Source: Rhodohalobacter sulfatireducens
Lineage (GTDB): Bacteria; Bacteroidota; Rhodothermia; Balneolales; Balneolaceae
NCBI RefSeq assembly: GCF_022012475.1
Contig: NZ_JAKLWS010000002.1
Span: 186,001-250,000, forward strand
Direction of reading: 5' to 3'
DNA length: 64,000 bases
The translations under genes were made by a program, and so were the position numbers. Under the pieces are notes generated by a model, which saw only the letters and a program-made list of their open reading frames with translations, made no database searches and was not told the DNA's origin. Positions 48,712-52,791 of the stretch are shown in pieces. Every line of letters starts with the position of its first letter. The first letter of the stretch is position 1.

Positions 48712-50892
48712 CTATATTCGCTCGCCGGATTTTCTTGAATAGAGTGTGCTTAAATAGTCCGAAATTTCGCTGATTGTCATTTCAATATATCCACGGGATG
48801 CGAACCTATTCTTTTCAGAATCTTTTGTGGCTTCCATTTGGGATTCTTGATTTGAACTAAAGTCAGATTTATTTGAGTCTGATTTGGATTTTTTTGATTT
48901 CGGATCTACAGTAATTGAATGCTCAGGAATAGCCTCAGAAGATTTTGGTCCGGTGTCGGTTTGTCCAGTATTTTTCTTGGTACTGGCTTTTGAATCGGAT
49001 TGTTTTCTTTTGATCGTTCGTGAGTGTTCAGGAACAGGATATGATGGGCTGACCTCATCCGGAGATTTGGAACCAGTTGAGCCGCCATCAGGTGTGTCAG
49101 AAGTTGGTGAAGGTGATCCTCCTCCTTTATTATTATCACTGCCACTTCCTCCAGATTGATTATTGTCATCCTTGCTGGAAAATATTTTACTAACGAAGTA
49201 GACAATTGCTGCAACAACTAATGCAAGTAAGGTATAGATTAACCATGATAAGCTTCTGCCTTCTTCGTCTGTGTCGGCTTCTTCAGCAGTTTCAGAATCT
49301 GTAGGTTCATCAACTTCAGATTCAGGTTCAAGCTCAGTGATGCTCTCCTCTTCCTCTATTACACTATCATCTTCCTCAATAGCATCTGAATCCGTAATCG
49401 TATCGTCTGAGGTATCATCAGGATCTTTGGATGCGATGTCAGGTTCTTCTGTTGCATCGGGTGTATCATCTACGGATGCATCTTCATCGGCCCCCTCAGG
49501 TGATTCTGTTGTTTGTTGTTCTTCAGTAGCAAGTGTATCTGCAATTTCGGTAGAGGAATCAACATCTTTTCTGCCGACTGTTTCAGGTTCAGTGTCTTCA
49601 TCATCTCTACGTTCAATAGGTGTGGTAGAAGCATCATCTTCTTCTTCTGATGGATCTGTTTCTGATTCGACATCAGCTGCTTCATCTATGGCTTGTCCAA
49701 TTTGTTCACCACCCTCAACACGGTTTAACTCATTTACTAAAGAATCAATACGGGCTTGAAGATCAGCAATATTATTTTCATACAATTGCTCTTGTTCTCT
49801 TCGTGCTGCCTGTTCAGCAGATAATTGGGTTTGAAGAGAATCCAGTTGAGTTGTTAACTCATCCAGTTTTTGTAAATTTAGTTCCGCCTTTTCTCTCTCA
49901 TTTGCAATCTCTTTCTCAAGACTTTCAATTCGGGTAATAAGTGTATTTAATGTGTCAGAATTTATCTCTACAGTTCTACTTTCTAATTGTTGCTGAGATT
50001 CCAACTCTTCTTCGAGTGATTCTATCTGATTTGTAAGGCTCTCAATCTGCGCCAGTTGTTCTTCTTGTTGGGCAAGCAATCGATTTTCAAGCTCTTCAAA
50101 TACATCATCCCCAGCATAAGGGGGCTGATCTGAAGGAAGCAGTGGTGTCGGCCAATCGGCGTCTACATCACTTGATCCAAATTTAAACTGAATGCCAACC
50201 GAAATTACACTCCAAGTGTTAGAAGTTTTGGCTGAACCACTCAGATCATACAATTCACCTAAATAATCTCCGTCAACAATGTCTCGATTAGCAACATTGA
50301 ATTCATATTGTGCAAAAGAATCAATTCGGGGACCGAGATTAAATCTTATTCCACCCCCGATAGACGTAAAGAATGTTTGCCCGGGGTGGTCTGCTGAAGT
50401 TGCATTTGGAATATTATTGTTGGCTCCGTCAGATTCAACAGAAATGTTGTTGAACATCAGCCCTGTCCCAATACTGCCGTATATATTAAAATTTTGAGAA
50501 TTCCCCCCGAATAATCGCAGCAAACTAAGTTGTGTAGAAAGGGATGAAGTCCAATATTGATTTTCTAGCGATAAAAAACTCTGTTGGTTTTCAAATTCAC
50601 TCAATAATGTGAATTTACCATATCCTATATTCGCTTGAAGGGCAACTTCAGGGGTTGCCACGTATCGAATATTAAAACCTATTGTATTATTGAACTGCTC
50701 TTTAAATTCAAAATTAGCATTTACAGCCGATTGAAATGTAGAACCCACATTTAGATGGCCTTTCGTAAGCGTGCCAAATACACCTATGCTTAATCGATTG
50801 GGTGTTTCATCCTGATTTTGAGCATTAGAATGACCAAAGAGGAGCAAAAATGACAAGGTTAGTAAAGAGGTGAATTTCCCCAATTTCATCAT
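48712..50892 (-). CDS. Predicted trans-envelope protein: OM barrel, coiled coil, acidic linker, TM helix, cytoplasmic tail
   Basis: Protein of 726 aa; I know no named family for this architecture. Visible segments: signal peptide 1-24; beta-barrel-like region about 33-238 in the style of small outer-membrane proteins (GFNIRYVATPEVALQANIGYG, then IYGSIGTGLMF, ending VISVGIQFKFG); coiled coil about 262-395 rich in Gln, Glu and Leu; a linker about 400-545 made mostly of Asp, Glu, Ser and Thr; one transmembrane helix 549-570 (LSWLIYTLLALVVAAIVYFV); and a tail 571-726 rich in Gly, Ser and Lys that contains the motif PEHSxTh twice (621-627, 656-662) and a short C-terminal helix. It could tie the outer membrane to the inner membrane and cytoplasm. 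The codirectional neighbour is the actin-like gene. Confidence 0.75.
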   Translation of the reverse strand: MMKLGKFTSLLTLSFLLLFGHSNAQNQDETPNRLSIGVFGTLTKGHLNVGSTFQSAVNANFEFKEQFNNTIGFNIRYVATPEVALQANIGYGKFTLLSEFENQQSFLSLENQYWTSSLSTQLSLLRLFGGNSQNFNIYGSIGTGLMFNNISVESDGANNNIPNATSADHPGQTFFTSIGGGIRFNLGPRIDSFAQYEFNVANRDIVDGDYLGELYDLSGSAKTSNTWSVISVGIQFKFGSSDVDADWPTPLLPSDQPPYAGDDVFEELENRLLAQQEEQLAQIESLTNQIESLEEELESQQQLESRTVEINSDTLNTLITRIESLEKEIANEREKAELNLQKLDELTTQLDSLQTQLSAEQAARREQEQLYENNIADLQARIDSLVNELNRVEGGEQIGQAIDEAADVESETDPSEEEDDASTTPIERRDDEDTEPETVGRKDVDSSTEIADTLATEEQQTTESPEGADEDASVDDTPDATEEPDIASKDPDDTSDDTITDSDAIEEDDSVIEEEESITELEPESEVDEPTDSETAEEADTDEEGRSLSWLIYTLLALVVAAIVYFVSKIFSSKDDNNQSGGSGSDNNKGGGSPSPTSDTPDGGSTGSKSPDEVSPSYPVPEHSRTIKRKQSDSKASTKKNTGQTDTGPKSSEAIPEHSITVDPKSKKSKSDSNKSDFSSNQESQMEATKDSEKNRFASRGYIEMTISEISDYLSTLYSRKSGERI

Positions 50893-51236: not shown

Positions 51237-52250
51237 TTATTCACTGATTGAAACACAAGTATGAGCATTACCAATATCCAATCCGATACTTTTCGTATCA
51301 GTTGAATTACTTTTCTTTGCCGAATGCAAACAGTACCCTTTGCTTGCCATTGTGAGAGGGTCATCTGGAATTTCAATATTTAAAAACCCCTTGAATTCAT
51401 CATAGAAGCAATCAACCAGTTCAGGGTAGCTTGCTCCACCTCCAACTAATACCATTGTACTGGCCTTATTAAAATCATCATCATTCCATGTATTTTTAAT
51501 TAATGGTGAAATGACATTTGCATAATATTGGTTCAGTACTTTTTTCCTTAGATCCGTTAAGTCGATGCGTTGTCTATTAACGGTGATATGCCCATTTTTC
51601 AGAGCGTTATCGAATTGGTGTTCGGTTCTTAAACTCAAATAGTGAGAGTTCGACAATTCTTTCATAGCGGAGTCAATTGCGTAACGCAAGCCACTTCCAC
51701 TGTTTAACGTTCGTTGTACAAATCCATTTTCTGTACAGAGTCCAAATTCAAGTGTGCCATACCCGATACTCACAACAAACATGCTGCCCCTGATTTGCAT
51801 TTCACCTTCGCGGGCAGCAACAATGGATCCAAATAACTCTGGTATAATGCTTATTCTCTCAATGTTTACACTTGCTTCAGACATACCACTACCGCCAAAA
51901 GGCATAGAGTCGTATTGAATAGTATCGATGTTGCTGATAAGTTCGGAGGCTGCTTCTTTATTTAAATTAAATGTTGCGTGAGGAAAACCAGTAGTAATGG
52001 AAACAGGATTTTGACCAACATAATCTGATGCGATGAATAAGCCTGATTTTAATAATAGGTTATAATCGAGGTCATCCGGGGAACTGTTAATTCCTTTATG
52101 TGGTGATTTACCTTCTAATAGAGCTAAATTTCCAATTACATAATTTTCACCTTCATGATGAATTTTTATTCCATTAATTTTTTCGGTAGTTACGTTTATT
52201 AGTGTGGAATTGTACCCTTCTAAAACGCTTGGAATAATAAAAGTTTTCAT
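51237..52250 (-). CDS. Actin-like ATPase (ParM/Alp-type fold), circularly permuted
   Basis: Protein of 337 aa. Motifs of the actin/ParM fold: phosphate-2 FVVSIGYGTLEFGL (158-171), adenosine motif MVLVGGGAS (266-274) and phosphate-1 SIGLDIGNAHTCV (321-333). In ordinary ParM/actin proteins phosphate-1 comes first, but here it is the last element, and the protein begins with FIIPS (4-8), which in ParM/Alp7A follows phosphate-1. YVIGNLALL (37-45) and PVSITTGFP (82-90) then come in normal order. An in-frame TAA 3 codons before the ATG excludes a longer N-terminus. The order implies circular permutation. Likely filament-forming; it neighbours a trans-envelope protein, not a ParR-like gene. Confidence 0.8.
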   Translation of the reverse strand: MKTFIIPSVLEGYNSTLINVTTEKINGIKIHHEGENYVIGNLALLEGKSPHKGINSSPDDLDYNLLLKSGLFIASDYVGQNPVSITTGFPHATFNLNKEAASELISNIDTIQYDSMPFGGSGMSEASVNIERISIIPELFGSIVAAREGEMQIRGSMFVVSIGYGTLEFGLCTENGFVQRTLNSGSGLRYAIDSAMKELSNSHYLSLRTEHQFDNALKNGHITVNRQRIDLTDLRKKVLNQYYANVISPLIKNTWNDDDFNKASTMVLVGGGASYPELVDCFYDEFKGFLNIEIPDDPLTMASKGYCLHSAKKSNSTDTKSIGLDIGNAHTCVSISE

Positions 52251-52791
52251 GTGAGATTAGTTAAATTTTGAATTTAAAAATGGTCGGAAAAACCTGGTAT
52301 CTATATTGATAAGAATTATAAAATGTCGTTATCCCCAATAAAATAATAGTAACAGCTATAAAAAAAGATTTTTACAGTTATGCAGTAATTTATACATAGT
52401 TACAGAAAATATATAATGTAAAATGAGTGGTTTTGATCTAAGGAAATTAGTACCTCAATAGTTGCAATAAACGATCACAATTTATGTAAACTTATTAAAC
52501 AAACTTCCAAGATCAGAGAGCAAATATTACTTCTTATCGAGAAAAGTAGTTGAATGAGATTATAAACAAATACTGCATTATTATGAAATAAGGCCTCCTA
52601 TTTTATTGAAAAAACTGAGAATCGATGGAGTACTCTTAAATCATATGAACACATTAAATCATTTCTTAAATAGAGGTGGCTTGTACACAACGTTTCAAGT
52701 TGAAAGTAACTTTGCTTTCAAATAAACTTTCGCAGTGTAATATTCCTGAACGTGTTTATGCTTATCTATAGCGGGGTTTTTGCAGAAGCAC
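52251..52791. other. AT-rich gene-free region upstream of the actin-like gene
   Basis: No gene or RNA seen in 541 bp. It holds the likely promoter of the actin-like gene. One short hairpin, TTGAAAG/CTTTCAA (52700-52721), lies near the AsmA end. I see no clear direct-repeat array. Confidence 0.45.

Follow-up and report, generated by a model that had tools for sequence, protein, structure and literature searches.

The gene at positions 51237 to 52250 of the window, the 64,000-nucleotide stretch of Rhodohalobacter sulfatireducens DNA analysed here, raises the question of whether the actin fold, which is among the best-studied folds, occurs naturally in a circularly permuted form. A sequence-only reading had named its product a circularly permuted actin/ParM-like ATPase, and this was upheld by family conservation, by an un-permuting test and, indirectly, by the predicted fold, ATPase activity being proposed from the motifs. 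The finding was confirmed to be larger than a single gene, comprising a patchy family of permuted actins that often has a bactofilin gene beside it and has distant relatives on plasmids. In open-licence papers no natural circular permutant of actin, ParM or MreB and no actin-bactofilin pair was found, nor any earlier description of the permuted family or of its bactofilin pairing; the circular permutation papers met there concern, in the portions available, methylases, the ends of phage DNA or kinase fold groups. The gene has the following features:

51237..52250, minus strand: coding sequence of the circularly permuted actin-like protein, 337 aa, ATG start (open reading frame translation and relatives)
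52257..52259, minus strand: in-frame TAA upstream of the ATG, read in the sequence
52227..52241, minus strand: N-terminal strand FIIPS, residues 4-8, placed by the ALP_N match
51837..51839, minus strand: E138, putative catalytic glutamate, present in 35/35 members and set against the E of Hsp70 'INEP' in profile alignments
51753..51770, minus strand: phosphate-2 loop SIGYGT, residues 161-166, with Ser161 for the usual Asp, aligned to Hsp70 FDLGGGT
51432..51446, minus strand: adenosine motif VGGGA, residues 269-273, with G270 and G271 in 35/35 members
51294..51311, minus strand: loop, residues 314-319, connecting the former C-terminal helix with the relocated hairpin, taken from the secondary structure of the model
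51258..51284, minus strand: GLDIGNAHT, residues 323-331, the relocated phosphate-1 motif, flanked by strands 320-326 and 330-336

The window protein begins MKTFIIPS, and no longer in-frame N-terminus is possible because the run TAA-TCT-CAC-ATG places a stop directly upstream; the earlier argument that this stop rules out a missed N-terminal motif was thus verified in the sequence, as was the position of GLDIGNAHT at residues 323-331 of 337 in the translation. The motif order is phosphate-2 (P2), adenosine, phosphate-1 (P1), and not the usual P1, P2, adenosine. By sequence comparison, FIIPS corresponds to the strand found just after the phosphate-1 hairpin in ordinary actin-like proteins; S8 is conserved in 35/35 and P7 in 31/35 rows of the family alignment.

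This assignment of the N-terminus, also made in the sequence-only reading, is supported by the ALP_N profile (PF17989), which hmmscan places on residues 2-140 with 34.5 bits (E 2.9e-8; gathering cut-off 26.3 bits), starting at profile position 17 of 148. The partition protein family phrog_691 matches residues 3-306 from profile position 25 of 329 (E 1.6e-21). The query N-terminus thus leaves the first 16 or 24 positions of these profiles unmatched. The most direct sequence test in this analysis is un-permuting, in which the C-terminal piece was moved to the front and ALP_N rescored in four members. The score rose from 34.5 to 47.2 bits in the window protein, from 53.5 to 62.2 in L042, from 39.7 to 47.0 in L045 and from 53.6 to 63.4 in L052, a gain of 7.3-12.7 bits in 4/4, and the match start moved from profile position 17-20 to 1. 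The one shuffled control, made from the window protein, reached 35.6 bits (+1.1) and started at profile position 16. Since the un-permuted ALP_N match aligns from position 1 and gains bits, GLDIG fits the phosphate-1 position by profile.

Among 296 Bacteroidota genomes, ALP_N matched 11 times, in 10 genomes; each match begins at profile position 16-21 and falls in a permuted-family locus. The profile misses several family members in six-frame searches, and the window gene was not reported by the six-frame genome search at E 0.001. Searched against solved structures by sequence, the single window protein had no significant match, and the family profile had weak matches to Hsp70 and ParM. Four Hsp70 alignments, among five alignments shown, place positions 316/319/321 to 338 on the N-terminal P1, a hint and no proof because each contributes only -1.8 to 1.5 bits; the ParM match (8x1i) showed no P1 match.

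The permuted form is conserved in the family, and the permutation is, as far as sequences tell, a trait of the whole family and not of one odd gene. The beta1-P1-beta2 hairpin is C-terminal instead of N-terminal, with new termini between old strands 2 and 3. A search for homologues with the same C-terminal GLDIG, proposed in the sequence-only reading, found the phosphate-1 motif 15-58 residues from the C-terminus in 44/44 non-redundant loci (drawn from the named loci and the Bacteroidota sample, near-duplicates removed, window excluded, open reading frames chosen partly by the P1 motif). The additional N-terminal copy that would have spoken against permutation was found within the first 70 residues in none of these 44. 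In the 35-row alignment, which consists of the window protein and 34 of 36 named loci (the incomplete L019 and L051 being left out), G323, D325, G327, N328 and T331 are invariant in 35/35 members, the most divergent of which is 38% identical to the window protein. A single G-x-D-x-G motif, close to the C-terminus, is present in each of the 35 named loci whose sequence extends to that end; L051, the sole fetched relative without the C-terminal motif, is truncated at a contig end.

An AlphaFold2 model built on the 35-row alignment reached a mean pLDDT of 90.6 and a pTM of 0.90, with 92-93 for the C-terminal hairpin. It shows a helix at 298-313, a loop, and strands at 320-326 and 330-336, in agreement with the linker that had been placed at about 311-320. 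Foldseek returned as its top match Ta0583 (2fsj; E 8.2e-16, TM 0.71), and its first ten rows (E <=2.1e-12) include Ta0583, pCBH ParM, Dh-cParM1, a pSK41 ParM and CorM. VIA-align gave Z 27.4 to Dh-cParM1 (8x1i; 303 aligned, 2.9 A), 27.2 to pCBH ParM (293 aligned, 2.6 A), 25.3 to Ta0583 (289 aligned, 2.5 A), 25.2 to CorM (290 aligned, 2.9 A) and 21.0 to MreB 1jcf; the chain is thus predicted to adopt the two-lobed actin fold over its length (pLDDT 90.6; Z 27.4 to 8x1i).

In 50/50 listed PDB rows, residues 1 to 313-318 of the model aligned to chains from their residue 18-60 on, so that the N-terminal part of the targets and the last 20 residues of the query are left without a sequential partner. 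The earlier placement of GLDIG at the phosphate-1 position is therefore backed by the profile and, indirectly, by the predicted fold; from the model we infer that the hairpin occupies the P1 site in three dimensions. Dh-cParM1 of Desulfitobacterium, a chromosomal ParM, and pCBH ParM (6ixw, 6izr) share with the query a two-domain fold over nearly the whole chain. Their alignments start at residue 22-23, and in both the N-terminal hairpin is presumably in its usual place, whereas in the query the hairpin is C-terminal and the P2 aspartate is replaced. The alignment to the archaeal actin homologue Ta0583 starts at its residue 20, and we take its motif order to be the usual one.

The claim that all three nucleotide motifs are recognisable held in part. 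Phosphate-1 and the adenosine GG are present in 35/35 members, but the phosphate-2 motif is without its usual aspartate in 35/35. Among the 35, the residue there is Ser (32), Cys (2) or Asn (1), and among the 44 loci Ser (39), Cys (2), Gly (2) or Asn (1). Besides the P1 residues, E138, which we take to be the counterpart of actin Gln137, G163, G165, E168, G270 and G271 are invariant in 35/35. The protein is predicted to bind ATP between its two lobes and probably to form filaments like those of ParM. Hsp70 and ParM suggest by analogy that hydrolysis should be strongly slowed when the P2 aspartate is lost; it might even be absent, and the putative filaments would consequently be stable scaffolds, a tentative step for which the balance falls slightly on the negative side.

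Membership in MreB (PF06723; 11.9 bits against a cut-off of 27) was rejected, as was membership in the FcmB equivalog (NF052678; 15.6 bits against 300), and the NCBIfam matches of the 35 members were weak and mixed (MreB 11, PRTRC_D 6, ParM 3, EutJ 3). FcmB/FcmC of Nostoc and CorM/CorR of Anabaena (PDB 9rmi) are presumably related to each other; the query stays far below the FcmB cut-off, and its predicted fold is close to that of CorM (Z 25.2). FcmB is described as an actin of the partition type that was co-opted for cell shape, FcmC being its operon partner; the paper contains neither 'permut' nor 'bactofilin' (PMC12645912).

Relatives were found in 16/98 related genomes (own genome counted) and in 23/394 sampled Bacteroidota genomes representing 11/170 genera, and the genome collection gave 36 named loci, so that the family is widespread but patchy. 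It is apparently chromosomal in the Bacteroidota, and chromosome-sized contigs carry members (L012, 4,294,247 bases; L036, 1.68 Mb; L046, 1.55 Mb). Named cultured carriers include Belliella aquatica, Mongoliibacter ruber and Sphingobacterium species. Among loci L075-L079 of the genomes G272, G223 and G268, which may be Salinibacter-like, G223 and G268 each hold two paralogous permuted actins, each with its own downstream bactofilin ending EW or DW.

A phage origin was rejected, the window protein having no relative in phage records and no match in viral contigs. With the family alignment, 23 stretches of viral contigs fitted the pattern and 0 were confirmed. Foldseek against viral predicted structures gave 29 matches at E <=0.001, with Bacillus phage G Gp506 on top; among those listed, most are ordinary Hsp70- or actin-like proteins.

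A tblastn search of plasmids with the window protein gave two weak matches. The ParM/StbA of an Acinetobacter plasmid (L091) carries P1 at its N-terminus and aligns to phrog_691 from position 4; a Pigmentibacter ruber protein ends IKIGLDVGNFALKAVTMGD and is therefore permuted. Relatives of the latter occur in eight Aeromonas plasmid records and in L122, a contig from a viral collection, and the five plasmid-type proteins aligned are all permuted with the same breakpoint as the chromosomal family. They carry a C-terminal GLD[IV]GN and are likewise without the P2 aspartate, with Q at the matching place. hhalign matched the plasmid-type and Bacteroidota families with probability 98.3 and E 1.5e-14; the alignment is colinear across residues 1-330 and keeps the N-terminal strand and the C-terminal P1 in register. 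One old permutation would be the simplest reading for both families, judging from these alignments; independent permutation is possible because identity between them is about 21%.

Where a ParR gene would stand, the plasmid-type gene is followed by a small gene and not by one for a bactofilin. In the Pigmentibacter ruber plasmid (L092:2435-3757) and in L122:3001-4315, the permuted ParM-like gene precedes a gene of 90-93 aa ending EGW, and in the Pigmentibacter record both genes are annotated as hypothetical protein. The small downstream proteins of three Aeromonas plasmids end NFK, FNT or DLK. The Pigmentibacter small protein matched nothing noteworthy in Pfam or PHROGs, and the small gene may be called ParR-like by place and size only. 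In the Aeromonas plasmids L123, L124, L125 and L127 (190-283 kb), the end of the permuted gene overlaps the small downstream gene; the annotation is hypothetical protein, and several have conjugation genes nearby. In Aeromonas media pE31A (L126), an insertion sequence interrupts the permuted ParM-like gene, intact relatives of which are found on other plasmids. The chromosomal family may thus descend from an already permuted plasmid actin, relatives of which were kept in Pigmentibacter and Aeromonas plasmids, and may have been recruited to a cell-shape or envelope task; arguments for and against this descent are in balance. A cell-shape role would have a precedent in FcmB/FcmC, a partition actin turned morphology protein in cyanobacteria, as far as the available part of that account goes (PMC12645912).

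A recurrent neighbouring gene encodes a bactofilin. A same-strand bactofilin lies within 500 nt downstream in 28/44 non-redundant loci, and within 50 nt in 17, as counted with a profile built from canonical bactofilins only and with at least 699 nt visible downstream per locus. A close downstream bactofilin is missing in 16/44 loci. Seven further loci have one within 2 kb, namely L025 (at 1.0 kb), L033, L072 and L073 (about 1.2 kb off, past another gene that appears by eye to encode a TPR protein), L047 and L048 (upstream) and L049 (on the other strand). All nine bactofilin-like neighbours scanned (8 downstream, 1 upstream) passed the PF04519 cut-off, with 42.9-83.7 against 27.9 bits, and thus belong to the bactofilin family. 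In L033/L067, L072 and L073, the order read by eye is M23 peptidase, permuted actin, TPR protein, bactofilin. M23-peptidase-like genes, identified by reading, stand beside the actin in three non-redundant loci, and bactofilins are often clustered with M23 peptidases according to the part of the source available (PMC10945521).

These neighbours differ from other bactofilins in their last residues. Among the 28 close downstream bactofilins, 23 have a terminal Trp, 26 a Trp in the last two residues and all 28 an aromatic residue in the last two. Of 30 other bactofilins, 0 have a Trp and 2 an aromatic residue in the last two, this control set being tilted to canonical bactofilins because it holds the 30 highest-scoring of the 51 matches that 61 genomes gave, and one of its members, L119, lying itself near a permuted actin of a TPR-type locus. 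The Trp tail was likewise present in 0/11 bactofilins from 11 further-checked genomes (some also among the 30 controls) and in 0/3 upstream bactofilins (L036, L042, L044). A Fisher test of the Trp contrast overstates independence, because the weak tree of the short domain implies 6 parsimony changes. Trp-tailed bactofilins were not joined in one clade in that tree. In L036, L042 and L044, two bactofilins flank the permuted actin, a short upstream one without Trp and a tailed downstream one ending WW. At the TPR-type loci, no bactofilin Trp tail is seen where the end is visible (L033; L119 for L073), and the L033 protein ends QSP.

In most of the family the actin may work with the bactofilin encoded nearby, whose flexible tail would dock on the actin through a Trp-type peptide at its end, a proposal drawn from these gene neighbourhoods and standing about midway between acceptance and rejection. 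Most bactofilin C-terminal tails are described as poorly conserved, and Myxococcus xanthus BacP as binding PadC through a long tail, in the portion of the source available (PMC12448750). When the L043 actin and bactofilin were folded as one chain, a weak test on a shallow alignment, no tail docking was seen; the tail had a pLDDT of 25-34 and the model a pTM of 0.64.

Together these parts make up a full explanation that we regard as somewhat probable, in which a permuted actin of the ParM/Alp branch, of plasmid type, was domesticated and in most of the family coupled to a bactofilin. A more specific version appears doubtful: a previously unknown two-polymer cytoskeleton in which a permuted plasmid segregation actin lost its P2 aspartate, formed long-lived filaments, became chromosomal in the Bacteroidota and exchanged ParR for a bactofilin that acquired the C-terminal Trp peptide of the adaptor. 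If it were true, a nucleotide-gated actin would control, or be positioned by, a nucleotide-free bactofilin polymer at the envelope. The family shows that the chain can deliver the ATP-binding hairpin from its opposite end, and it offers a natural tool for asking which termini matter for partners and for the ends of filaments. A genuine link to bactofilin would make this a type of actin-bactofilin pair that the literature searched did not show, and the cultured carriers make the pair testable now.

Several other explanations were weighed. That there is no permutation at all, GLDIG being a chance motif or an N-terminal motif having been lost by frameshift or other error, is extremely improbable, and nothing was found in its favour: the family rules it out (35/35 invariance, 44/44 loci), sequencing error is excluded because the whole family shows the same arrangement, and the un-permuting test with its shuffled control and the confident model hairpin argue the same way. 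A permuted actin-like ATPase that does not polymerise, acting as a nucleotide switch or as an adaptor anchoring bactofilin or envelope proteins, would accord with the absence of the P2 aspartate (35/35, 44/44) and with the weak, mixed NCBIfam matches; however, the fold is closest to filament formers (8x1i, pCBH ParM, CorM) and the other motif glycines are invariant, and this alternative is considered unlikely. Still less probable is a partition system that remains active, in which the gene serves to move DNA or a mobile element and the bactofilin stands in for ParR as adaptor. It draws on the distant plasmid relatives beside small genes in the ParR place and on the phrog_691 'partition protein' match, but chromosome-sized contigs carry at least some of the members, gene neighbours vary, and the window protein has two weak plasmid matches and no phage or viral-contig match.

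A further alternative concerns the tail alone. The terminal Trp of the bactofilins could have nothing to do with the actin and could serve, for instance, to anchor the protein in the membrane, in which case the linkage would mark a shared envelope locus only. Consistent with this are the L043 single-chain fold without docking, the bactofilins without Trp at TPR-type loci with a visible end (L033, L119) and the binding of membranes by bactofilins, as stated in the available part of the source (PMC12448750). Yet, in the sets examined, Trp tails occur only on bactofilins just downstream of a permuted actin (26/28 against 0/30 controls, 0/11 in further genomes and 0/3 upstream), and a terminal Trp also occurs on the small plasmid partner of Pigmentibacter and of L122, although three from Aeromonas lack it. 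We therefore hold an unrelated Trp to be the less probable reading, though not a negligible one.

The linkage of permuted actin and bactofilin genes does not extend to the window itself. No bactofilin was found near the actin in the window, L017, L018, L020 or L021, and since this partner is missing, the actin of the window lineage would act alone or with another partner, which could, from its sequence, be the 726-aa product of the downstream gene. The single bactofilin over threshold in the window genome was rejected as partner, being encoded elsewhere, beside an M23-peptidase-like gene (by eye), and without a Trp tail. The genome encodes MreB elsewhere (465 bits) and, by reading, an FtsA-like gene; no ParR-type gene was noticed on reading the neighbours of the window gene.

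The downstream gene (48712-50892, minus strand, 726 aa) had no Pfam match above cut-off. By eye, its product appears to combine an outer-membrane barrel, a coiled coil, an acidic linker, one transmembrane helix and a basic tail. The tails of this protein and of its L017 relative share an aromatic helix-like motif, EISDYLSTLYSRKS and EVSDFFGDLFSSKS, in a comparison of two sequences only. The L018 relative of the 726-aa protein is encoded upstream of the actin gene and ends in an OmpA-like part.
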